Shown piece after piece: positions 3,172 through 21,697 of a DNA stretch of 21,805 nt. The translations under genes were made by a program, and so were the position numbers. The notes under the pieces are model-generated. The model saw only the letters and a program-made list of their open reading frames with translations, was not told where the DNA came from and did not search any database. Numbering within the stretch: position 1 is the stretch's first letter; each line of letters opens with the position of its first letter. Source of the stretch: a virus; IMG/VR virus record IMGVR_UViG_3300006080_000092, positions 1 through 21,805 of that record; one strand, 5' to 3'.

Positions 3172-3200
3172 TTGCCATTTTGGTCGTTTTACTATATAAT
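3172..3200 (+). promoter_or_regulatory. sigma70-like promoter for the vWA/metalloprotease gene
   Basis: The -35 is TTGCCA (3172-3177) and the -10 is TATAAT (3195-3200), with 17 bases between. The -10 continues as TATAATATAAT. A 33-base stretch from 3190 to 3222, covering the -10, the leader and the start of the ribosome site, is repeated exactly at 5521-5553 before the AAA+ gene. Confidence 0.85.
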
Positions 3201-3234: not shown

Positions 3235-5295
3235 ATGAATATACAAAGTCAAGATTACCTAGCAAAGTTACTTGCTAAAGAGAACCTTACCGTTCAACAC
3301 GGTAACTATTCAACAGCTTCATTCAACGTTGTAGATAGAATACTTAGTCTTCCATTATGGGCAGATAAAGGTAAAGCTGTTTACGATTTATTAGTTGGTC
3401 ATGAAGTAGGACATGCATTATACACACCTGCAGAGGGGTGGCATGATTCCGAATCTAAGATTCCAGGTGTTCCAAGATCAATGATTAACATCATCGAGGA
3501 CATTCGTATCGAGAAGTTAATTCAAAGAACATACCCTGGTATCGTAAGATCATTTAAGAAAGGTTATAAGATCTTATTTGATGACAACCTATTCGGTACA
3601 GTCGGTAAAGACTTAACTAAATACGGTTTCATGGATAAGTTAAACATCCACTCTAAAGGCAGAGGATATGCTAAAGTTGAATTCGACGATACAGAACAAA
3701 TGTTTGTTGATTTAGCTATGAAAGTTGAGACTTGGGATGATGTGCTTAATGCGTGTTTGGAGATTAATGATTTCTTGCAAAACCGCGATGATTATAAATA
3801 TGAAGATAAGGAGAATGAAGATGAGAACACTGAAACAGGAAGTGCATGTGGTGAAGAGTCAGATGAAACAGGATCCGACATGGGGCAGACTGATGAAGTC
3901 GGCGAAGACACTAGCGATGCACCGTCAGATAGTAAACCAGCTGAAAATGAGTCAGTAACTGATGATGCCCAACGTGAAAACGAGGGTGATCTTTTAGAAA
4001 AAGATGAACGTGGTAAGCAACCAGCTTACTGTGATGGTATTAAAGAAGATACTATTGATCAAATGGTTACTACGTATAAAGATCTTGCAGCTGCACGAGC
4101 TAAATCTGAGGCACGTACAAATTATTCAATATACAACAACGAATTTGTCAGTGCTAATTTTGAAACCTTTATATCTGAGAGCAAGAAAGTCGTGGCTCAA
4201 ATGGCTAAGGAATTTGAACGTAAGAAAGCTGCATTCGAATATAGCCGTAGTCAAACTGCAAAGAAAGGTTCTTTGGATGTTAACAAACTTCACCAGTATC
4301 AATACAGTGAAGATATCTTTCAAACAGTAACTCAGTTAGCGCAAGCTAAGAGCCACGGCATTGTGTCAGTACTTGACTGGTCTGGATCAATGAGTGGCAT
4401 CATCGAAGATGTTGTTAAGCAGTCAATTCAAATAGCAATGTTCTGTAAGAGAGTTAACATTCCATTTGAGTTTTACACTTTCACAAGTGGTGCAAATGAT
4501 GTTGACATTGATAAGCTACCTATGGGCACTATACAGAATGTCGATAGAGTCCGCATTACTGAGATTACTAATAACCGTTTGAGTAAAGCTGACTTCATGG
4601 GATCTATTAAAGCGTTATTTGCAGCAGCTATTATCACTGGTGATTATTCTACACGTACTAGCACAGGCATCTATTATGGAGATTTGTGCACATATGATCG
4701 TATGGGTTCTACACCTCTTATCGAAACTACGATTGCGTTAGCTACATTAGTCTCTAGGTTCCAAGCTAGAAACGCTATTCAGAATACTAACATCATCATC
4801 CTAACCGATGGCCAACCAGATTATCTTTCATTGACACAAGATTACAGTGATAATAATTTGAGTATAGACACATACAATATTGTATTAAACTTTAAAGGTA
4901 AAACTATTAAAGGTTCATCTACCGAAGAGATATACAGTGAGTGTGTTAAAGCCTTGAAAGCTTATACTAACTCAACTGTAATGTGTTTCTTCTTGGCTGG
5001 AGGTAATCAAGATTTCTTAATGGGATTTTACAAGATAGGTGGTTACGTTGATAATTCAATTAAGGATAAGGCTGTTAAAACCTTTAAGGCTGATGGTCTC
5101 CACGTTACTAGCAATGTCAACGGTTATGATAAATTCCTTATTATCAAGGTTGGTGATAAGAATGTTGCAACTGAATTTGAACCTAAGAAGACAGAGAAGA
5201 TTTCAGACATCAAACGTGAATTTAGAAAGTTTAATAAGAACAAGAAGCAAGTTAAGAAGTTAGTTAAAACAATCACAGATGCGGTTGCCGCATAA
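3235..5295 (+). CDS. vWA-domain protein with N-terminal HExxH metalloprotease-like domain (CobT-like)
   Basis: A 686-residue protein in three parts. Residues 1-190 carry HEVGH at 56-60 followed by NIIED at 85-89, the layout of a gluzincin-type zinc peptidase with a possible third ligand at Glu88. Residues 190-270 are a very acidic, Ser/Thr-rich linker. The C-terminal half is a von Willebrand factor A domain with a complete MIDAS: DWSGS at 381-385, Thr at about 493 and TDGQPD from 524. Such proteins are annotated CobT-like and pair with MoxR/CobS-type AAA+ ATPases, and one lies just downstream with a matching promoter. The pair probably forms a metal-dependent remodelling or chaperone machine. 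Cobalt chelation is not implied. The ribosome site GAGAAAAGG (3217-3225) fixes the start. The real substrate is unknown. Confidence 0.85.
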   Translation: MNIQSQDYLAKLLAKENLTVQHGNYSTASFNVVDRILSLPLWADKGKAVYDLLVGHEVGHALYTPAEGWHDSESKIPGVPRSMINIIEDIRIEKLIQRTYPGIVRSFKKGYKILFDDNLFGTVGKDLTKYGFMDKLNIHSKGRGYAKVEFDDTEQMFVDLAMKVETWDDVLNACLEINDFLQNRDDYKYEDKENEDENTETGSACGEESDETGSDMGQTDEVGEDTSDAPSDSKPAENESVTDDAQRENEGDLLEKDERGKQPAYCDGIKEDTIDQMVTTYKDLAAARAKSEARTNYSIYNNEFVSANFETFISESKKVVAQMAKEFERKKAAFEYSRSQTAKKGSLDVNKLHQYQYSEDIFQTVTQLAQAKSHGIVSVLDWSGSMSGIIEDVVKQSIQIAMFCKRVNIPFEFYTFTSGANDVDIDKLPMGTIQNVDRVRITEITNNRLSKADFMGSIKALFAAAIITGDYSTRTSTGIYYGDLCTYDRMGSTPLIETTIALATLVSRFQARNAIQNTNIIILTDGQPDYLSLTQDYSDNNLSIDTYNIVLNFKGKTIKGSSTEEIYSECVKALKAYTNSTVMCFFLAGGNQDFLMGFYKIGGYVDNSIKDKAVKTFKADGLHVTSNVNGYDKFLIIKVGDKNVATEFEPKKTEKISDIKREFRKFNKNKKQVKKLVKTITDAVAA

Positions 5296-5502: not shown

Positions 5503-5531
5503 TTGCCATTATCCACGATCTACTATATAAT
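5503..5531 (+). promoter_or_regulatory. sigma70-like promoter for the MoxR/CobS-type AAA+ gene
   Basis: TTGCCA (5503-5508), 17 bases, TATAAT (5526-5531), extended to TATAATATAAT. It shares a 33-base identical block with the promoter and leader at 3190-3222, so the two partner genes should be transcribed and translated alike. Confidence 0.85.
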
Positions 5532-5563: not shown

Positions 5564-6736
5564 ATGAAAAATGTAAAACAAGAAGTTTTTGCCAAAGTAG
5601 CAGAGACACACACAAAAAATGATTTCACTGTTAAAGAGATATTAGCAATCGCTGATAACTTCGGTTGGAAACGACAAGCAGTATACAATCAACTTAAGAA
5701 ATTCCCTAAAGTAGGTACTAGATCAGGTGAAGGTGTATATAACCTTGAAGCTGCTTTAATCCCTTTCAGGGCTAAGCCATCACCAACTACTGTTCAACAA
5801 GTAGGTGTTTCATCTGTTTCTAACGATGAGGTATATATCCCTGAAATTGATAAGACATTCGTCGCTTGGGGTAACTTTAAAGATGTCTCAACTATCATTA
5901 ACTCAGGTGCATTTTACCCTACATATGTTACAGGTTTATCTGGTAACGGTAAGACGTTCATGATCGAACAAGCATGTGCTAAGGCTGGACGTGAATATGT
6001 TCGTGTTCAGATCTCTCCTGAGACTGACGAAGATGATTTAATTGGTGGTTTCCGTTTATTAGCTGGTGAAACAGTATTCCAAAAAGGACCTGTTATCAAA
6101 GCTATGGAAGCCGGAGCAGTTCTGTTGATTGATGAGATTGATCGCGGTACTAATAAGATCATGGCCCTTCAAGGTGTTTTGGAAGGCAAGCCTGTTCTAA
6201 TTAAGAAAACTGGTGAGATCATCAAACCTAAGAAAGGTTTTAATGTAATTGCTACTGCTAATACAAAGGGTAAAGGCTCTGATGATGGTCGCTTTACAGC
6301 TGCTACAATCATTGACGAAGCATTCCTAGAACGTTTCACTATTACCATTGAACAAGCATTCCCAGCTCAAAAGACTGAGCAAAAGATTCTTAAGAAGCAC
6401 ATGGAGAAGTTTGATTGTGTTGATGAAGAGTTTGCAACACTATTGACTGGTTGGGCTGATACGATTCGTAAGACGTTTGAAGATGAAGGTATTGATGAGG
6501 TTATTTCAACTCGTCGTCTTTGCCACATCGTACAGACATTCAGTATCTTCGGTCAACGTGAGAAAGCTATCTCATTATGTATTAATCGTTTTGATGATGA
6601 TACTAAAGAAGCTTTCCTTGATCTTTACTCTAAGGTTGATGCAACCATCAACAGTGTTGATGATTATGGCACAGACTGCTATGATGACGTAGCAGAAGAT
6701 AGTGCTCAAGTTCCTTATGCTGATTACAAACTATAA
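5564..6736 (+). CDS. MoxR/CobS-type AAA+ ATPase with N-terminal helix-turn-helix-like region
   Basis: A 390-residue ATPase. Residues about 15-60 (DFTVKEILAIADNFGWKRQ and following) look like a winged or simple helix-turn-helix. The AAA+ core has Walker A GLSGNGKT at 124-131, Walker B LLIDEID near 187-193, sensor 1 ATANT, and an arginine-finger-like FLERF. This is the CobS/MoxR pattern, and such ATPases act with a vWA partner, here encoded just upstream. The ATG at 5564 is chosen because GAGAAAGGA (5548-5556) is the ribosome site; an in-frame TTG at 5546 lies within that site and is not credible. T4 itself lacks this pair, but T4-like marine phages often carry a cobS-like gene. Function in infection is unknown. 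Confidence 0.88.
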   Translation: MKNVKQEVFAKVAETHTKNDFTVKEILAIADNFGWKRQAVYNQLKKFPKVGTRSGEGVYNLEAALIPFRAKPSPTTVQQVGVSSVSNDEVYIPEIDKTFVAWGNFKDVSTIINSGAFYPTYVTGLSGNGKTFMIEQACAKAGREYVRVQISPETDEDDLIGGFRLLAGETVFQKGPVIKAMEAGAVLLIDEIDRGTNKIMALQGVLEGKPVLIKKTGEIIKPKKGFNVIATANTKGKGSDDGRFTAATIIDEAFLERFTITIEQAFPAQKTEQKILKKHMEKFDCVDEEFATLLTGWADTIRKTFEDEGIDEVISTRRLCHIVQTFSIFGQREKAISLCINRFDDDTKEAFLDLYSKVDATINSVDDYGTDCYDDVAEDSAQVPYADYKL

Positions 6737-6748
6737 TCGGAATTGGGG

Positions 6749-6777
6749 TTGACATTCACATCGAAAAGGCGTATAAT
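6749..6777 (+). promoter_or_regulatory. sigma70-like promoter giving a probably leaderless mRNA
   Basis: TTGACA (6749-6754), 17 bases, TATAAT (6772-6777) continuing ATA. This is the best -35 in the window. The first ATG of the next gene is at 6786, eight bases after the -10, close to the expected transcription start. Confidence 0.85.
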
Positions 6778-6785
6778 ATAAACAT

Positions 6786-7070
6786 ATGACAATTAAATAC
6801 AAATACAATGAAAAGGGGTTACTTGACGAGATGCAGGGTTATGTTGATGGTACATACAATGAACATTACTCTGGTCGAGGTGGAGTCCAAGCATTAGATC
6901 TTATCTGCGCAAGTGGTAAGGGCTTGGACTTCACATTAAGTAACGTAATTAAATATGCTGCAAGGTATGGTGAAAAAGACGGGACTAACCGTAAAGATCT
7001 AATTAAGATCATTCACTATGGCTTACTAGCTTTAAATGAACATGACGAGGTTAATAATGAATCTATCTAA
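6786..7070 (+). CDS. DUF3310 family protein
   Basis: A 94-residue protein matching the DUF3310 pattern common in phages: a HYSGRGGVQALDLI-type opening, then FTLSNVIKYAARYGEK and a DLIKIIHYGLLAL helix. The family is sometimes labelled nucleotide-kinase-like, but its biochemical role is not established. Two starts are possible. ATG 6786 has no ribosome site and lies at the predicted 5' end of the transcript. ATG 6831 (residue 16) is preceded by AAAAGGGG at 6811-6818 with a rather long 12-base spacing, and would still keep most of the domain. The 3' end overlaps the clamp gene by 14 bases. Confidence 0.8.
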   Translation: MTIKYKYNEKGLLDEMQGYVDGTYNEHYSGRGGVQALDLICASGKGLDFTLSNVIKYAARYGEKDGTNRKDLIKIIHYGLLALNEHDEVNNESI

Positions 7071-7998: not shown

Positions 7999-8076
7999 GG
8001 GCCTATAGCATAGCGGTTCCAATGCAACCGACTCATAATCGGTTGACCCTTGGTTCGAATCCAAGTAGGCCCACCA
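7999..8076 (+). tRNA. tRNA with anticodon CAT (probably tRNA-Ile2 reading AUA)
   Basis: A complete cloverleaf: acceptor GGGCCTA (7999-8005) with TAGGCCC (8066-8072), D-stem GCAT/ATGC, anticodon stem ACCGA/TCGGT around the loop CTCATAA (anticodon 8034-8036), T-stem CTTGG/CCAAG with loop TTCGAAT, and an encoded CCA end at 8074-8076. It is not an initiator, since it lacks the three G-C pairs below the anticodon and has a paired first position. The arm GACTCATAATCG followed by TTG resembles E. coli tRNA-Ile2, whose C34 is changed to lysidine by TilS to read AUA. Elongator Met is the alternative. It stands alone between two protein genes. Confidence 0.95.
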
Positions 8077-9367: not shown

Positions 9368-9801
9368 CACCTAAAGAATCTTTAAATCGTGGTAAGACTG
9401 ATCTATCTACCAATCCGTTCTCATACTTGAATGCTATCAACAATAACGATTGGTATCATTTCAAGGATGTAACTATATTGAATAAAGATTATCCAGCTTT
9501 TATGATCAATCGTGGTTTATCATACTTCCCCGATACTGTCTTATATGCTAACGAGATGAATATCCACCACCAGATCGATAGTAGACTCCAATTCGATTTT
9601 CTTATAAATATTATTCGTAAGAGGAAAAGGTTCTCGAAGTGGAATAAGACTACAGAGTCTTCTGATATAGAAGCTCTAAAAGCCTATTATGGCTATAGTA
9701 ATGAGAAAGCTCGTAATGTTTTACCTCTTTTAAATATGAATGAATTGAATATTATAAAGGAAAAGGTAAATCATGGTGGATTATCAAGACGAGCTCGTTG
9801 A
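9364..9801 (+). CDS. 62: gp62-type clamp loader small subunit
   Basis: The non-ATPase subunit of the clamp loader. It starts with GTG overlapping the gene 44 stop, so it is translationally coupled. Similarity to T4 gp62 is weak but position-specific: FMINRGLSYFPDTVLYANEMN corresponds to T4 [21 protein letters not shown], and RKRKRFSKWNK to PRGKRYGKWAK. At 145 residues it is shorter than T4 gp62 (187), lacking part of the C-terminus. It overlaps regA by 29 bases. Confidence 0.85.
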   Translation: MTPKESLNRGKTDLSTNPFSYLNAINNNDWYHFKDVTILNKDYPAFMINRGLSYFPDTVLYANEMNIHHQIDSRLQFDFLINIIRKRKRFSKWNKTTESSDIEALKAYYGYSNEKARNVLPLLNMNELNIIKEKVNHGGLSRRAR

Positions 9802-10183
9802 CTGGAGCCCGGAGATTATGTTAGAAGTCACATTAGCACAACCCGACGATTTTTTAAAGATCAGGGAAACCCTAACAAGAATGGGTGTTGCAAGCAAGAG
9901 AGATTCAAAGTTATATCAGTCTTGTCATATACTGCACAAGCAAGGAAGATACTTTATCACGCACTTTAAAGAACTGTTCTTATTAGATGGTAAGCCGTCT
10001 AACTTAACAGAGAATGATGTTGGCCGTAGGAATACAATTGTACAATTGTTATCTGATTGGGGGTTACTAGAAGTAGTATTACCTATTCAAGACACTGCAC
10101 CATTAAGTCAGATTAAGATCATATCACACAAGGAAAAACATAATTGGGAGTTATGCCCAAAGTATAATATAGGCACCAAATAG
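9773..10183 (+). CDS. regA: RegA translational repressor
   Basis: RegA binds the start regions of early phage mRNAs and blocks ribosome entry, including those for clamp and loader genes in T4. The match is strong: FLKIRETLTRMGVA, LYQSCHILHKQGRYFITHFKE and KHNWELCPKYNIG correspond to T4 segments with the same spacing. T4 RegA starts MIEITL, which matches residue 16 here (MLEVTL). The ATG at 9773 has the better ribosome site (AAAGGAAAAGG, 9757-9767), giving 136 residues with a 15-residue acidic extension; ATG 9818 would give the T4-sized form. The gene starts inside gene 62. Confidence 0.93.
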   Translation: MVDYQDELVDWSPEIMLEVTLAQPDDFLKIRETLTRMGVASKRDSKLYQSCHILHKQGRYFITHFKELFLLDGKPSNLTENDVGRRNTIVQLLSDWGLLEVVLPIQDTAPLSQIKIISHKEKHNWELCPKYNIGTK

Positions 10184-15458: not shown

Positions 15459-16221
15459 TTTACCAGAGACTAGTAAGAACGTATGTATTGCATTATCAGG
15501 TGGACTAGACTCCACCGTTTTGGTTCATGCATTAGTAAAGAAGTATGGGTCTGATAGGGTTAAGGCTATATCATTTGACTTTGGTCAAAGACATAACATT
15601 GAATTAGATATGGCTGAAGCTACTGCTGATAAGTTAAACATCGATCATAATGTATATCGACTCGATTACTTAAAGGATATTGCTCAGGAGACATGTGCAT
15701 TGATTGCTGGATCCAATCTTAAACCTAAGACTGCAGAAGAGAATGCAGGTGATCCACAAGTCAATACATATGTGCCATTTAGAAACTTACAGTTCGCTGC
15801 TATCACCGCAGCATATGCAGAAGCTAAAGAATGTGAGATAATCTTTCAAGGATTGAATGCTGTAGATGAATATGGTTATTGGGATACATCACTTGAGTTC
15901 ACTAAAAGAGTTAATGACATACTAGCATTGAATAGACAAAACTTAGTGAAATTCGTCGCACCTTTTGTAGAGCTATATAAAGATGATGAGTTACAATTAG
16001 CCAAAGAGTTATCAACACACTTTGGTTATGATATCCTAGAGAAGACTTGGTCGTGTTATAACGGCTGGTCAGAGGAGTATAACTTTAAAGAATGTGGTGT
16101 ATGTAATACATGCACAGAGAAGTTAACTGGTTATATTCAAGCTGAATATACTAATGAGGTGATTATGAATAAGTTTAATGTTAATGAAGATACAATTGAA
16201 TCGATAAGGTGTAAGTTATGA
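15451..16221 (+). CDS. queC: QueC, 7-cyano-7-deazaguanine (preQ0) synthase
   Basis: ATP-dependent conversion of CDG to preQ0. The PP-loop SGGLDST is at residues 16-22, FDFGQRH follows at about 50, YVPFRN and GLNAVDEYGYWDTS are typical. The zinc site is complete: Cys202, Cys215, Cys218, Cys221 in CGVCNTC. Length 256 (E. coli 231). ATG 15451 is chosen for AAGGAG at 15439-15444; a TTG at 15436 precedes that site and is rejected. It overlaps the amidotransferase gene by 8 bases and the transporter gene by 4, so all three are coupled. Confidence 0.95.
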   Translation: MIDLPETSKNVCIALSGGLDSTVLVHALVKKYGSDRVKAISFDFGQRHNIELDMAEATADKLNIDHNVYRLDYLKDIAQETCALIAGSNLKPKTAEENAGDPQVNTYVPFRNLQFAAITAAYAEAKECEIIFQGLNAVDEYGYWDTSLEFTKRVNDILALNRQNLVKFVAPFVELYKDDELQLAKELSTHFGYDILEKTWSCYNGWSEEYNFKECGVCNTCTEKLTGYIQAEYTNEVIMNKFNVNEDTIESIRCKL

Positions 16222-17189
16222 TAAAGTCATTCTTCTTTGGTCCGTTTAAATCCTATGCTTGGTGGACACTATCATTTCTTGTATTACTAGTTGGATTTCA
16301 AGCATATCTGGTAAGGCAGTTTAATGATTGGTATAAGGTCTTTTATGATGCCTTAGAAGATAAGGATCAAGATGCATTTTATGAAAGTTTCATTAATAGG
16401 GGTGATTTATTATTCTATGATGTGACTACATGGGGATTCATTCCGTTAGCTTTACTAGCTATTATTATGTTTGCTTATACTCAATTCCTTGGTAACAGAT
16501 TCTCTTTTAGATGGCGCGAAGCTATGACATGGCATTATCTCCCAACATGGAAGGCTATGGATAATGTAACTGAAGGTGCTTCACAACGTATACAAGAAGA
16601 TACTAAAAAGTTTGCATGGTTTGTCTGGGTATTGGGTGAAGGTTTGGTTAAGGCTATTATGATCTTAGTATTCTTTCTTCCAGTACTATGGACGTTAAGT
16701 GAAGGCTTTGGTATACCTGGATATCTTATTTGGATTGCATTAGGTGTAAGTGTTGGTGGGTTAGGTGTATCAGCCGTTATCGGACGTAAGTTACCAAAGC
16801 TTGAATATAATAATCAACAAGTAGAGGCTCAATTTAGAAAGCATCTTGTGCGATGCGAGGATGATAGAAAGATTCATAGTCTTGAAGAGCTCTTTGATAT
16901 ATTTAAGCATCTTAAAGTTAATTACTATAACCTATATAACAATTACAAGTATTATTCGTTATGGGAGAACTTATACTTTCAAGCTGGAGTTATTATTCCA
17001 TATATGGTATCGGCACCTCAATTCTTTGTTGGAGCGATTACATTAGGAACACTAGTACAGATTGGTAACGCCTTTGATAAGATACATGAATCTATGAGCT
17101 TCTTTACAGATAACTGGATGACAGTAACAGAACTTAAATCAGTGATAATTCGTTTAAAAGAGTTTGAATCTGATATAAATAAATCATAG
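16218..17189 (+). CDS. SbmA/BacA-like peptide transporter homologue
   Basis: A 323-residue integral membrane protein with about five to six hydrophobic spans (near 15-35, 62-86, 130-160, 165-190 and 250-285). It aligns well with E. coli SbmA: NDWYKVFYDALE, FSFRWREAMTWHYLPTW, GASQRIQEDTKKFAW, FLPVLWTLS, NQQVEAQFRKHLVRCEDD, ITLGTLVQIGNAF and ELKSVIIRLKEFE all have counterparts in order. SbmA (406 residues) is a proton-driven inner-membrane importer of peptides such as microcins B17 and J25. The phage form lacks about 80 N-terminal residues including the first SbmA helices. Like SbmA it has no ATPase domain. Its ATGA overlap with queC ties it to the modification operon. What it carries is unknown. 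Confidence 0.88.
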   Translation: MIKSFFFGPFKSYAWWTLSFLVLLVGFQAYLVRQFNDWYKVFYDALEDKDQDAFYESFINRGDLLFYDVTTWGFIPLALLAIIMFAYTQFLGNRFSFRWREAMTWHYLPTWKAMDNVTEGASQRIQEDTKKFAWFVWVLGEGLVKAIMILVFFLPVLWTLSEGFGIPGYLIWIALGVSVGGLGVSAVIGRKLPKLEYNNQQVEAQFRKHLVRCEDDRKIHSLEELFDIFKHLKVNYYNLYNNYKYYSLWENLYFQAGVIIPYMVSAPQFFVGAITLGTLVQIGNAFDKIHESMSFFTDNWMTVTELKSVIIRLKEFESDINKS

Positions 17190-17702: not shown

Positions 17703-17722
17703 GGGCCGAAAGGCCCGTCTTT
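17703..17722 (+). terminator. intrinsic terminator after the Hsp20 gene
   Basis: GGGCC (17703-17707), GAAA tetraloop, GGCCC (17712-17716), then GTCTTT. The short T-run makes it moderate in strength. The next ribosome site follows within ten bases and no separate promoter is seen, so read-through probably feeds the next gene. Confidence 0.65.
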
Positions 17723-17737
17723 ATAATGGAGAAGTAA

Positions 17738-18022
17738 ATGAAAGACGTATATATCGTAAGACTATCAACCGGTGAAGAACTGCTATGTACCATAGAATCT
17801 GATACTGATACACATCTCACTATTAAACAACCATATGTAATCCTTCCAACCGCCGAAGGTAGCATTCAATTCATGAAGTACATGGGTTATGCAGATTACA
17901 CTACGTTGCCTGTTAAGGTTACTAATGTAATGTGGGTAGTTAAACCGAGTAAGGAAATCACAACAAAGTATAATGAAATGACGGGATCTATAGCTATGCC
18001 TAATAAGAAAATTATAATCTAG
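17738..18022 (+). CDS. small conserved phage protein, possible Sm-like fold
   Basis: A 94-residue protein, mostly beta-rich. YIVRLSTGEELLCTIESDTDTHLTIKQPYVILPT (two runs, residues 5-38) has the pattern of an Sm/Hfq-like fold, strand-turn-strand with a GEE turn, and a helix-like TKYNEMTG near the end. Comparable small proteins occur in T4-like marine phages without known role. The ribosome site is ATGGAGAAG. It lies between Hsp20 and DNA polymerase. The fold suggestion is inference; RNA binding is not shown. Confidence 0.7.
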   Translation: MKDVYIVRLSTGEELLCTIESDTDTHLTIKQPYVILPTAEGSIQFMKYMGYADYTTLPVKVTNVMWVVKPSKEITTKYNEMTGSIAMPNKKIII

Positions 18023-18029
18023 AAACCCG

Positions 18030-18058
18030 TTGCCATTTGACTTGAATTACTATATAAT
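18030..18058 (+). promoter_or_regulatory. sigma70-like promoter for DNA polymerase, probably leaderless
   Basis: TTGCCA (18030-18035), 17 bases ending TACTA, TATAAT (18053-18058). It shares TTGCCA and the TACTA before the -10 with the promoters at 3172 and 5503. The polymerase ATG is at 18065, six bases after the -10. Confidence 0.85.
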
Positions 18059-18064
18059 AAATAC

Positions 18065-20629
18065 ATGATGAAACAATTTTATACTTCAGTACAACAGCTG
18101 GGATCGAATATCCTTGTTCGAGGATACGAGAACGGCAAGGCTGTACAACGCAAGGTCCCATACGGACCTACCTATTACGAGGCTTCACAGAATCCAGATT
18201 CTTTATGGAAATCACTTCAAGGTGAACCATTGGAGCCTATTCAATTTAATTCAATTAAAGCCGCAAAAGACTACTATAAGCTATATAGTGGCGTATCCGG
18301 TAAGAAAGTGCATGGAATGAATAATTTCGTAGCACAATATATCAATGAGGTATATCCCGGCCAGATCGAGTTCGATCGCAGCCTGATCAATGTGACTTCG
18401 ATTGATATCGAGGTACAATCCGATGAGGGCTTCCCATTTCCAGAAGATGCGAAGTTTCCTATCATCTCTATAGCTATGAAAAACAACATAGATAATACAT
18501 ACTATGTTTGGGGCTTGAAAGAATATGATGTTCATAAGTCTATTATCGATGTAGAGAGATTAGTGTATCGTCATTGCAAAGATGAAGAAGCATTACTCGC
18601 TAGCTTCGTGGATCACTGGAAGAATAACTGCCCTGACGTAATTACTGGTTGGAATGTTAAGTTCTTCGATATACCATACATCGTTAATCGTATAACCAAT
18701 ACCACAGGCATTAAGTTAGCCAAGGACTTATCACCATTCAAGTTCATTAAGGCTGGAACGATTAAGATGATGAATAGGGAAGATCAGTATTGGGAGTTAT
18801 TTGGTGTGCAAACATTAGACTATATGGATCTATTCAAGAAGTTTGGATATTCATTTGGACCTCAAGAATCATATTCATTAGATCATATCTCAAGTGTTGT
18901 ATTGGGTGAACGTAAATTATCTTATGAAGAGCACTCTAATCTGTATACACTATACAAAGAAGATCATCAAAAGTTTATTGACTATAACATTCGAGATGTT
19001 GAGTTGATTGAACGGTTGGAAGATAAGATTGGCTTGATTACTCTTGCAATGGTTGTAGCTTATAAGGCTGGAATCAATTACAAGGATTGTATGGGAACTG
19101 TAGGTGTATGGGATTCTATTATCTTTAGGGACTTGCATATGCAGAACATAGCAGTACCGCCGAATGAACATGATATGAAAGAGAAGTATCCTGGTGGTTA
19201 TGTTAAGGAACCTCAAGTAGGATTACATAACTGGGTTTGTTCATTTGACTTGAACTCTCTATATCCATCTATCATTATGCAATACAATATGAGTCCTGAG
19301 ACTATAATAGGTGGTCCGAGAGATCCTCAATTATCGTTTAGAGGTGATGACTACATTAAGAATGTTGATAATATATTAAAGGGTGGTATTACAAATACTG
19401 TTCGTGATACAGCCTTGGCTACTAATGGAGTTAGGTATAGCACTAAACGTGTTGGTGTAATTCCTCGTATCATTGAAGATCTATATGCTGAACGAGTTGG
19501 CATTAAGAAAGAGATGTTACATGCTCAACAAGAGAAAGAGGGTGTGGATAAGAATAATAAGCAAGCTATCTATAACATTGAGAAGAAGATTGCTATTGCT
19601 GAGAATAGACAGATGGCTATTAAGATTCTACTAAACTCTTTATATGGTGCTCATGGATCTCAATACTTCAGATACTTCAATATGAATACTGCTGAAGCTA
19701 TTACTACTACTGGGCAAGCCACCATTAGATGGGCTGAACAAGCTATCAATGGATATCTTAATAAACTACTGGAAACTGATCATGATTATATTATTGCTAT
19801 TGACACTGACTCTATTTACGTTGACATGGCCGAACTCGTTTTACGTGTTAAGCCTAATAACCCTGTTGCTTTCCTGGATAAGGTTTGTGCAGAAACACTT
19901 GAAAAGGTACTAGAAAGGGCGTATAATATATTATATGAATCACTTGGTGGAAGATCTAATAAAATGGTAATGGCTAGGGAAGCAATCGCTGACCGCGGTA
20001 TATGGACTGCAAAGAAGAGATACATTCTTAATGTACATAACAATGAAGGTGTGCAATACAAAACACCCAAGTTAAAGATTATGGGTATTGAAGCTGTTAA
20101 GTCATCTACGCCAGCACCTTGTAGACAAGCATTACGTGATATCTTTAAGACAATCATAGCCGGATCTGAAAGTGACACTCAAGATGAGATTGCAACGTTC
20201 AAAGCACACTTTAAGAGTTTGCCTGCACATGAGGTTGCATTCCCACGTGGAGTATCCAATATCACTAAATGGATTCCTAAGTCTGCATCAGACTTAAGTC
20301 AAGGTCTGTATGGCTCTGAACTATATATGAAAGGTACACCTATTCATGTGCGGGGTACTATACTATACAATAATGCAATCAAGCAGTATAAGAACTTAGC
20401 TCCAATCAATAATGGTGAGAAGATTAAGTTCTTATACATTATGAAGCCTAATCCGATTCATGAGAATGTTATATCATTCCAAGACTATCTTCCTAAGGAA
20501 TTGAAGTTAGATGAATATGTTGACTATGAGTTGCAGTTTGAGAAAGCTTTTGTTAAGCCAATCAAACCAGTACTTGATGCTATCGGATGGGATGTTGAAG
20601 CATCTATATCATTAGAGGATTTCTTTTGA
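18065..20629 (+). CDS. 43: gp43-type family B DNA polymerase
   Basis: The replicative polymerase with 3'-5' proofreading. Exo motifs: SIDIEVQSD (Asp114, Glu116), GWNVKFFDIPYIVNR, and YNIRDVELIERL. Polymerase motifs: FDLNSLYPSIIMQYN (motif A), KILLNSLYGAHG (motif B), IAIDTDSIYV (motif C) and KKRYILNV. The C-terminus SISLEDFF resembles the clamp-binding tail of T4 gp43. Length 854 (T4, 898). ATG ATG at 18065/18068 opens the gene with no ribosome site, and the promoter -10 lies only six bases upstream, so initiation is probably from a leaderless mRNA. All catalytic aspartates are present. The primase-like gene starts one base after its stop. Confidence 0.97.
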   Translation: MMKQFYTSVQQLGSNILVRGYENGKAVQRKVPYGPTYYEASQNPDSLWKSLQGEPLEPIQFNSIKAAKDYYKLYSGVSGKKVHGMNNFVAQYINEVYPGQIEFDRSLINVTSIDIEVQSDEGFPFPEDAKFPIISIAMKNNIDNTYYVWGLKEYDVHKSIIDVERLVYRHCKDEEALLASFVDHWKNNCPDVITGWNVKFFDIPYIVNRITNTTGIKLAKDLSPFKFIKAGTIKMMNREDQYWELFGVQTLDYMDLFKKFGYSFGPQESYSLDHISSVVLGERKLSYEEHSNLYTLYKEDHQKFIDYNIRDVELIERLEDKIGLITLAMVVAYKAGINYKDCMGTVGVWDSIIFRDLHMQNIAVPPNEHDMKEKYPGGYVKEPQVGLHNWVCSFDLNSLYPSIIMQYNMSPETIIGGPRDPQLSFRGDDYIKNVDNILKGGITNTVRDTALATNGVRYSTKRVGVIPRIIEDLYAERVGIKKEMLHAQQEKEGVDKNNKQAIYNIEKKIAIAENRQMAIKILLNSLYGAHGSQYFRYFNMNTAEAITTTGQATIRWAEQAINGYLNKLLETDHDYIIAIDTDSIYVDMAELVLRVKPNNPVAFLDKVCAETLEKVLERAYNILYESLGGRSNKMVMAREAIADRGIWTAKKRYILNVHNNEGVQYKTPKLKIMGIEAVKSSTPAPCRQALRDIFKTIIAGSESDTQDEIATFKAHFKSLPAHEVAFPRGVSNITKWIPKSASDLSQGLYGSELYMKGTPIHVRGTILYNNAIKQYKNLAPINNGEKIKFLYIMKPNPIHENVISFQDYLPKELKLDEYVDYELQFEKAFVKPIKPVLDAIGWDVEASISLEDFF
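19899..19927 (+). promoter_or_regulatory. possible internal promoter inside DNA polymerase
   Basis: TTGAAA (19899-19904), 17 bases, TATAAT (19922-19927) extended to TATAATATA, like the intergenic promoters. It lies within the thumb-side coding region of gene 43 and would make a transcript for the last 700 bases and the primase-like gene. Confidence 0.5.
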
Positions 20630-20630
20630 C

Positions 20631-21563
20631 ATGATTGGTTTAACGATATTCAAGAATCTATTTGATAATACCACTGATAAGTCTATGCAGTTTGATGACT
20701 TTGATCGGTTTGAAGCTTTCATGTATAAGCTATCAGAGATTGAATATCGAGATAAGAAGGATGCTTCGTTAATGACGCCTGCTTCATTCTTACCTGATAC
20801 TACTAGGGCTAACGTTAATGTAATTGAATGGCAATCTTGGGCTGCAGTAGATGTAGATGATCAAGTGTATGATGGTGATTTAAAAGAAGAGCTTATTGAG
20901 TTGTATGGTCAATATAGATTCATATGTTACTCTACGGCATCTTCTACAATAGCCAAGCCTAAGTTTAGATTGATATTTCCTTTATCAGCGCCGGTTAAGC
21001 AAGCTAAGATTAAACATTTCTGGTTCGCCCTTAATAAGGAGTTAGGTGACATTGGAGATCCACAAACTAAGGATTTAAGTCGCATGTATTTCGTACCTGG
21101 TAAATACATAGGCTCCAACGCGTTTATCTTCTCAAATACAGGCGATTTAATGGATCCTAGTATACTAATGGGTAAATACGAGTACGCAGTTAAAACAGGC
21201 AATTCGTTCTTGGATAAGTTACCGGCATCAGTGAGAGAACAATTGATTAAGCATAGAAAGGAACAAATGGATAACACATCTATTGCATGGAGTAACTACC
21301 ATAACTGTCCATTTATAAACCGGAGATTAGTAGTAGAGTATCAAACCATCAACGAGACTGGTTGGTACTCAAAGATGTATGCTATAATGGTATCAATAGC
21401 TATTAATGCTATTAGACAGAAGTACCCTATTAACAGTATGGAGATAGCGGACTTATGTACGCAGATTGATAATGATAATGGTGGGTGGTACAAAAACAGA
21501 CCTCTTACACGAGAGGCGGAAGGAGCAATTAAATTTGCTTATGAAAATACGGTTGACATCTGA
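20631..21563 (+). CDS. AEP (archaeo-eukaryotic primase)-like protein
   Basis: A 310-residue protein resembling the catalytic part of plasmid and phage AEP/PrimPol-type replication proteins. WAAVDVDDQ (70-78) holds the hhhDhD motif (Asp74, Asp76). ICYSTASSTIAKPKFRLIFPL (98-118, residues in two runs) matches the Y-T-SHT-x-RxRxxxPL strand, and DPQTKDLSRMYFVPG (143-157) the third motif. The histidine of the usual sxH motif is replaced by Thr106. A helical C-terminal part (about 200-310) could be a PriCT-like region. T4 uses the unrelated DnaG-type gp61. Adjacent to gene 43, a primase or primase-derived role fits. The ATG is one base after the polymerase stop. Confidence 0.65.
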   Translation: MIGLTIFKNLFDNTTDKSMQFDDFDRFEAFMYKLSEIEYRDKKDASLMTPASFLPDTTRANVNVIEWQSWAAVDVDDQVYDGDLKEELIELYGQYRFICYSTASSTIAKPKFRLIFPLSAPVKQAKIKHFWFALNKELGDIGDPQTKDLSRMYFVPGKYIGSNAFIFSNTGDLMDPSILMGKYEYAVKTGNSFLDKLPASVREQLIKHRKEQMDNTSIAWSNYHNCPFINRRLVVEYQTINETGWYSKMYAIMVSIAINAIRQKYPINSMEIADLCTQIDNDNGGWYKNRPLTREAEGAIKFAYENTVDI

Positions 21564-21581
21564 CGGTAAATGATGTATAAT
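21553..21581 (+). promoter_or_regulatory. sigma70-like promoter for the small downstream genes
   Basis: TTGACA (21553-21558), 17 bases, TATAAT (21576-21581) extended to TATAATATA. The -35 lies within the last codons of the AEP-like gene. The leader has ATAACAATTAGGAG, joining the conserved motif to the ribosome site. Confidence 0.85.
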
Positions 21582-21607
21582 ATATTATATAACAATTAGG
21601 AGTAACT

Positions 21608-21697
21608 ATGCATCTTAAAGAAAAGATTAAGTTTTTATTAAATGGCAAATCCATTGAGGAACTAACAGCTAAAGAAGTTAAGTTCAGAGGATTTTGA
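21608..21697 (+). CDS. 29-residue small ORF
   Basis: Reads MHLKEKIKFLLNGKSIEEL and on to KEVKFRGF. It has a proper ribosome site (AGGAG, 21598-21602), its own promoter at 21553 and tight linkage to the next gene, one base before that ATG. It could be a real micro-protein or a leader peptide coupling translation. No family recognised. Confidence 0.6.
   Translation: MHLKEKIKFLLNGKSIEELTAKEVKFRGF

Follow-up and report, generated by a model that had tools for sequence, protein, structure and literature searches.

In bacteriophage T4, the DNA polymerase gp43 is the textbook case of translational autocontrol through an mRNA leader. The protein represses its own translation, and its operator comprises a hairpin and the ribosome site within that leader (PMC3014915). 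A different situation is met in the window analysed here, a 21.8-kb fragment of a T4-like phage (positions 1 to 21,805 of IMG/VR record IMGVR_UViG_3300006080_000092), and the question it raises is how gp43 is transcribed and translated when the short gap in front of it is taken up by a promoter that ends just before the start codon.

The window carries gp47, gp46, gp45, gp44, gp62, regA, and gp43 (Table 1), where gp44 to gp47 are names that we assigned by eye from their sequences. The family B polymerase and exonuclease domains of gp43 are full-length, with phrog_262 matched over residues 1–854. No near DNA relative of the window was found in the phage collection. Among its other features, the window encodes a phage-borne SbmA/BacA-like peptide transporter at 16218–17189 (PF05992, E 3e-77), in a region of replication and nucleotide metabolism; a search of genome contigs with this gene, as a clue to the host, gave no match and no close genome relative. 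A GGGCC-GAAA-GGCCC hairpin with a short T-rich stretch (17703–17716) lies between an Hsp20 gene and the 94-aa ORF; it is terminator-like and near the Shine–Dalgarno sequence (SD) of that ORF. At 7999–8076 there is a phage tRNA with a CAT anticodon and an encoded CCA, which is probably not of the initiator type, given that its first pair is G-C, and may be tRNA-Ile2 or an elongator tRNA-Met.

Table 1. Positions of the features of the window discussed in the text
Feature	Position	Strand	Details
Sister promoter	3172..3200	+	TTGCCA-N17-TATAAT, same TACTATATAAT as the gp43 promoter; 34 nt from -10 to ATG, holding AAAAGG
Sister promoter	5503..5531	+	TTGCCA-N17-TATAAT, same TACTATATAAT as the gp43 promoter; leader holds GAAAGG
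Second near-leaderless candidate	6749..6788	+	TTGACA-N17-TATAAT-ATAAACAT-ATG; phrog_480 protein, ORF 6786-7070
RegA translational repressor	9773..10183	+	PF01818
Upstream 94-aa ORF	17738..18022	+	phrog_527; own SD; 42-nt gap to gp43, filled by the gp43 promoter
gp43 promoter, -35 box	18030..18035	+	TTGCCA, 5/6 to TTGACA; 17-nt spacer to -10
gp43 promoter, -10 box	18053..18058	+	TATAAT, 6/6
Predicted transcription start	18065..18065	+	A of ATG1, by inference; C/A step, 7 nt downstream of the -10 box
Tandem start codons ATG ATG	18065..18070	+	18065-18067 and 18068-18070; ATG2 corresponds to the M-x-FYT start in relatives
gp43, family B DNA polymerase	18065..20629	+	854 aa; PF00136, PF03104; phrog_262, E 2.9e-301
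Primase-like gene	20631..21563	+	directly after the gp43 stop, without promoter

Promoter and start codon of gp43

The two boxes of the gp43 promoter together match the consensus at 11/12 positions, and AAATAC is all that separates the TATAAT from the ATGATG. Bacterial leaderless (TA-led) genes are recognized by a -10-like signal located some 10–12 bp upstream of the start codon (Zheng et al., 2011; PMC3160421), the classical phage example being lambda cI (PMC3160421, PMC9031893). Their mRNAs start at the 5′ AUG, mostly bind 70S ribosomes, and respond differently to initiation factors (PMC9031893). The gp43 gene of the window has in common with TA-led genes and lambda cI an AUG start (ATG ATG at 18065), a -10 box at the same distance (the TATAAT begins 12 nt 5′ of the ATG), and no SD, as no GGAG/AGGA/GAGG-type motif is present upstream of the ATG. 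The first-pass annotation had put the end of the -10 box at 18058 and ATG ATG from 18065, with no SD before it; both positions are exact on the sequence, and the motif search bears out the missing SD.

The start codon itself is well defined by homology. The window protein begins MMKQFYTSV, and its relatives begin M-x-FYT (the N-terminus of RB6 gp43 is ATGAAAGAATTTTATATC); M2 aligns with the initiator of T4 gp43. Since homologues begin in this way and no other in-frame ATG lies near the gp43 start, translation starts at ATG1 or ATG2. When the 100 nt upstream of the gene were subjected to 20,000 dinucleotide shuffles, a TATAAT 5–9 nt from the ATG with a -35 box of at least 5/6 arose in only 0.015% of them (1.5e-4).

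The A of ATG1 is the seventh base after the -10 box and is preceded by a C, a distance and an initiator context that are typical of sigma70 starts. Host sigma70 RNA polymerase would thus be expected to start at A18065, or no more than about 2 nt away from it, and the resulting gp43 mRNA would begin AUGAUGAAACAA, with the AUG at its 5′ end. Ribosomes would initiate at this terminal AUG by the leaderless route, without an SD interaction and probably by 70S binding. Polymerase output would then be set by promoter strength and the state of ribosomes and initiation factors, not by leader-mediated autorepression. From the sequence and the comparison with relatives, we put at about 0.8 the probability that the 42-nt gap is a bare sigma70-type promoter abutting gp43, which would give a leaderless mRNA with ribosomes loading at the 5′ AUG.

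Other promoters in the window

Eleven promoter-like sites scoring at least 10/12 were found on the plus strand of the window. Two of them are sisters of the gp43 promoter (Table 1), and precede a 686-aa gene at 3235 and an ATPase-like gene with a likely ATG at 5564. Each sister promoter is followed by an SD-bearing leader, ATAATTATAAACAATTGAGAAAAGG or ATAATTATAAACAATTGAGAAAGG, so the gp43 promoter has the same core minus the leader. Both sisters thus give rise to SD leaders, and only gp43 lacks one among the three. The window differs in this respect from the TA-led and lambda cI cases, in that its genome also has promoters that yield SD leaders; moreover, lambda cI is a prophage repressor, whereas gp43 serves a T4-like phage as its replicative DNA polymerase.

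A second candidate, the phrog_480 gene at 6786, has perfect promoter boxes and a TATAAT 8 nt before its ATG; this near-leaderless layout is not kept in relatives, and the closest homologue has an SD-like AAGG. At 21553–21610, a perfect consensus TTGACA-N17-TATAAT is followed by an SD leader (TTAGGAG) and an ATG at 21608. We also considered a late promoter upstream of gp43. AATAAATA at 18056–18063 has one mismatch to TATAAATA, and a T4-style start from it would fall past both ATGs; this reading was rejected, and TATAAATA-type matches are not enriched in the window. AACAATT, considered as a conserved 5′ element near several early mRNA starts, did not occur above chance.

Polymerase loci in related phages

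We fetched 110 gp43 loci from IMG/VR, together with those of public phages; 97 were left without near-duplicates and fragments. Three layouts were found, namely a leaderless promoter (25 loci), a promoter followed by a longer leader (about 15), and coupling to the ORF before gp43 (about 51, almost all cyanophage-type); a few loci fit none of the three. The main spacing count was made on the 43 loci, window included, in which gp43 is preceded by a gap and sufficient sequence is available upstream. The polymerases of the leaderless class are 37–69% identical to the window protein and include that of the complete phage C48C1.

A TATAAT lies 5–9 nt before the ATG in 25/43 gapped loci, as against a mean of 0.19 and a maximum of 3 in 500 shuffles, which places the arrangement beyond chance. 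Three of the 25 (L003, L013, and L015) are near-identical, so there are about 23 distinct leaderless loci. Nearly all 25 have 17 nt between the -35 and -10 boxes, and the gap from the upstream stop to the gp43 ATG is often 31–42 nt, the length of one promoter. A pyrimidine stands just before the ATG, as for an RNA polymerase initiator, in 24/25 leaderless loci, and also in 12/16 leadered ones (p = 0.07). Among the 43 loci, the distance from promoter to ATG is bimodal, at either 5–9 or 24–46 nt, with 10–23 nt empty. Such a distribution is expected if a message has either room for an SD or no leader at all.

An SD is present in 0/25 leaderless and 12/15 leadered loci (Fisher 8e-8), a contrast that is partly forced because at a spacing of 5–9 nt the -10 box occupies the place of the SD. 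On independent pairs of the tree, 6–7 go in the expected direction and 0 in the opposite one (median p 0.03). The informative parts are the fixed spacing, the empty 10–23 nt range, and the SDs in most loci with a farther promoter. All 25 leaderless loci start with ATG, compared to 11/16 leadered loci (p = 0.006), a difference that is not significant on independent pairs. In L029 (2405–5162) and L030, the gp43 frame ends after 488 codons, and the region matched is about 70 codons longer than the protein; the gene may be split or carry an insertion.

On a quick maximum-likelihood tree of gp43, the leaderless class needs 12 changes and occurs on several branches. Within a well supported group of 35 rows, window included, it is the commonest state, and it is also seen in four basal rows on the cyanophage side. 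The first-pass annotation had called such an arrangement unusual for this phage group; on the contrary, it is the commonest layout among gapped gp43 relatives. The promoter anatomy and the comparison across relatives lend good support to its proposal of a leaderless gp43 mRNA, with the 5′ end itself being a prediction. No prior report of a leaderless gp43 was found in the open-licence literature searched.

Outside the leaderless class, T4 gp43 has a leader, and in the cyanophage type gp43 is mostly coupled to the gene before it. The T4 gene 43 unit (T4, RB69, and RB6) resembles the window in its homologous polymerase, its own upstream promoter, and the presence of regA in the replication cluster, and differs in its leader with operator hairpin and SD (in RB6, ...TAATAACTCGGGCTATAAACTAAGGAATATCTATG), which is absent in the window. 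The polymerases of marine cyanophages (P-TIM68, S-SM2, and relatives) are 43–47% identical to that of the window. Their loci mostly lack a gp43 promoter, and translation there is probably coupled, because the ATG overlaps or abuts the stop of the upstream ORF (as also in P-TIM68).

Predicted leaderless starts in other genes

Among the fetched loci, leaderless starts were found for 5/23 primase genes, with one more at 10 nt, and for 1/40 helicase genes, so that a leaderless helicase class was rejected as resting on a single locus. None were found for the clamp-loader gene gp44 (0/11) or the clamp gene gp45 (0/8), all of which have an SD. The gp45 and 95-aa matches in L141 and L039 had been leaderless candidates and were discarded as SD-led, since GGAG precedes a second in-frame ATG. 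Over 13 contigs, TATAAT-N5-9-ATG is only slightly above a reversed-pattern control. We consequently rejected a general leaderless habit of these phages and regard the arrangement as selective.

The complete phage C48C1 (OQ984149, Kyanoviridae), whose polymerase is 49% identical to that of the window, has the same promoter-adjacent gp43 ATG (TTGACA-N17-TATAAT-N7-ATG) without an SD. At 30980–34380 of this genome, gp43, a DNA methyltransferase, and primase follow in succession, with their own near-consensus promoters 6–7 nt before the ATG. For the methyltransferase, between the other two, the layout holds if the start is the ATG at 33486. The promoter stands at 6 nt for primase and methyltransferase, leaderless starts that the window does not have. 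Four of 200 annotated C48C1 starts have a promoter (score at least 9) within 12 nt, including gp43 and primase, and only these two of the four show near-consensus -35/-10 boxes without an SD.

Alternative readings of the gap

The promoter may be real and the start a few nt off, giving a leader of 1–5 nt or an end inside ATG1 with ATG2 (18068) translated. We regard this as possible, if the less likely course. YR steps occur 7 nt and also 9 nt past the -10 box, the spacing of 9 in L036, L040, and L046 allows a 3-nt leader, and the tandem ATGATG seen in the window, L003, L005, L013, and L039 would tolerate wobble. Against this, the commonest start distance of 7 nt lands exactly on A18065 after C. 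Such a message would functionally still be near-leaderless, and the reading overlaps with that of a leaderless mRNA.

It is rather improbable that gp43 is made mainly from upstream read-through transcripts, on which the AU-rich, unstructured 42-nt gap would serve as an SD-less leader for S1-aided or 70S-scanning initiation. In its favour, the gene before gp43 runs in the same direction and ends 42 nt short of it, and a search for a terminator from 18022 to 18065 found none. The gap forms only a weak fold (-3.0 kcal/mol), and a TATAAATA site resembling a late promoter occurs at 17174. In the cyanophage type, gp43 is coupled to the preceding gene. However, read-through leaves unexplained both the near-consensus promoter fixed 5–9 nt before the ATG in 25 loci and the gap lengths that match one promoter. 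Read-through from upstream genes may nevertheless add leadered, SD-less gp43 transcripts. That the TATAAT is an accident of AT-rich phages and not a working promoter is very unlikely, even though the last 7.8 kb of the window show no overall excess of promoter-like sites and the spacing pattern over 13 contigs barely exceeds its control, given the 25/43 loci, the 1.5e-4 for the window alone, the properly spaced -35 boxes, and the near copies of the promoter before two other window genes.

Consequences for gp43 regulation

If the gp43 mRNA is leaderless, its clearest consequence would be the loss of the leader operator. The known control of T4 gp43 is leader autorepression, and that is therefore what a leaderless transcript must lack. 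A T4-type operator, in which a hairpin and a ribosome site occupy the leader, is absent here; the predicted transcript has neither a 5′ leader nor an SD, and so no T4-style operator would be present on a transcript from this promoter. The fold of 18023–18100, gap included, is weak (-3.0 kcal/mol, z +1.07), without a stable hairpin. We find no support for the suggestion that gp43 may escape RegA; the window has a regA gene, and its product might bind around the 5′ AUG of the gp43 mRNA.

Taken more widely, and only tentatively, expression of the DNA polymerase may have shifted to leaderless mRNAs in a marine T4-like lineage, as may that of primase, methyltransferase, or helicase in some of its members, with the clamp and clamp-loader genes keeping their SD leaders. 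If so, catalytic replication genes would be translated under ribosome and initiation-factor conditions unlike those of the rest of the phage, and the leaderless state would replace the classical leader autorepression of gp43. A clade without a gp43 leader, with the promoter kept at an exact distance from the AUG, would imply that leader autocontrol is dispensable or has been replaced. Close relatives with leaderless and SD-led polymerase genes would provide natural pairs for the effect of leader type on phage replication.
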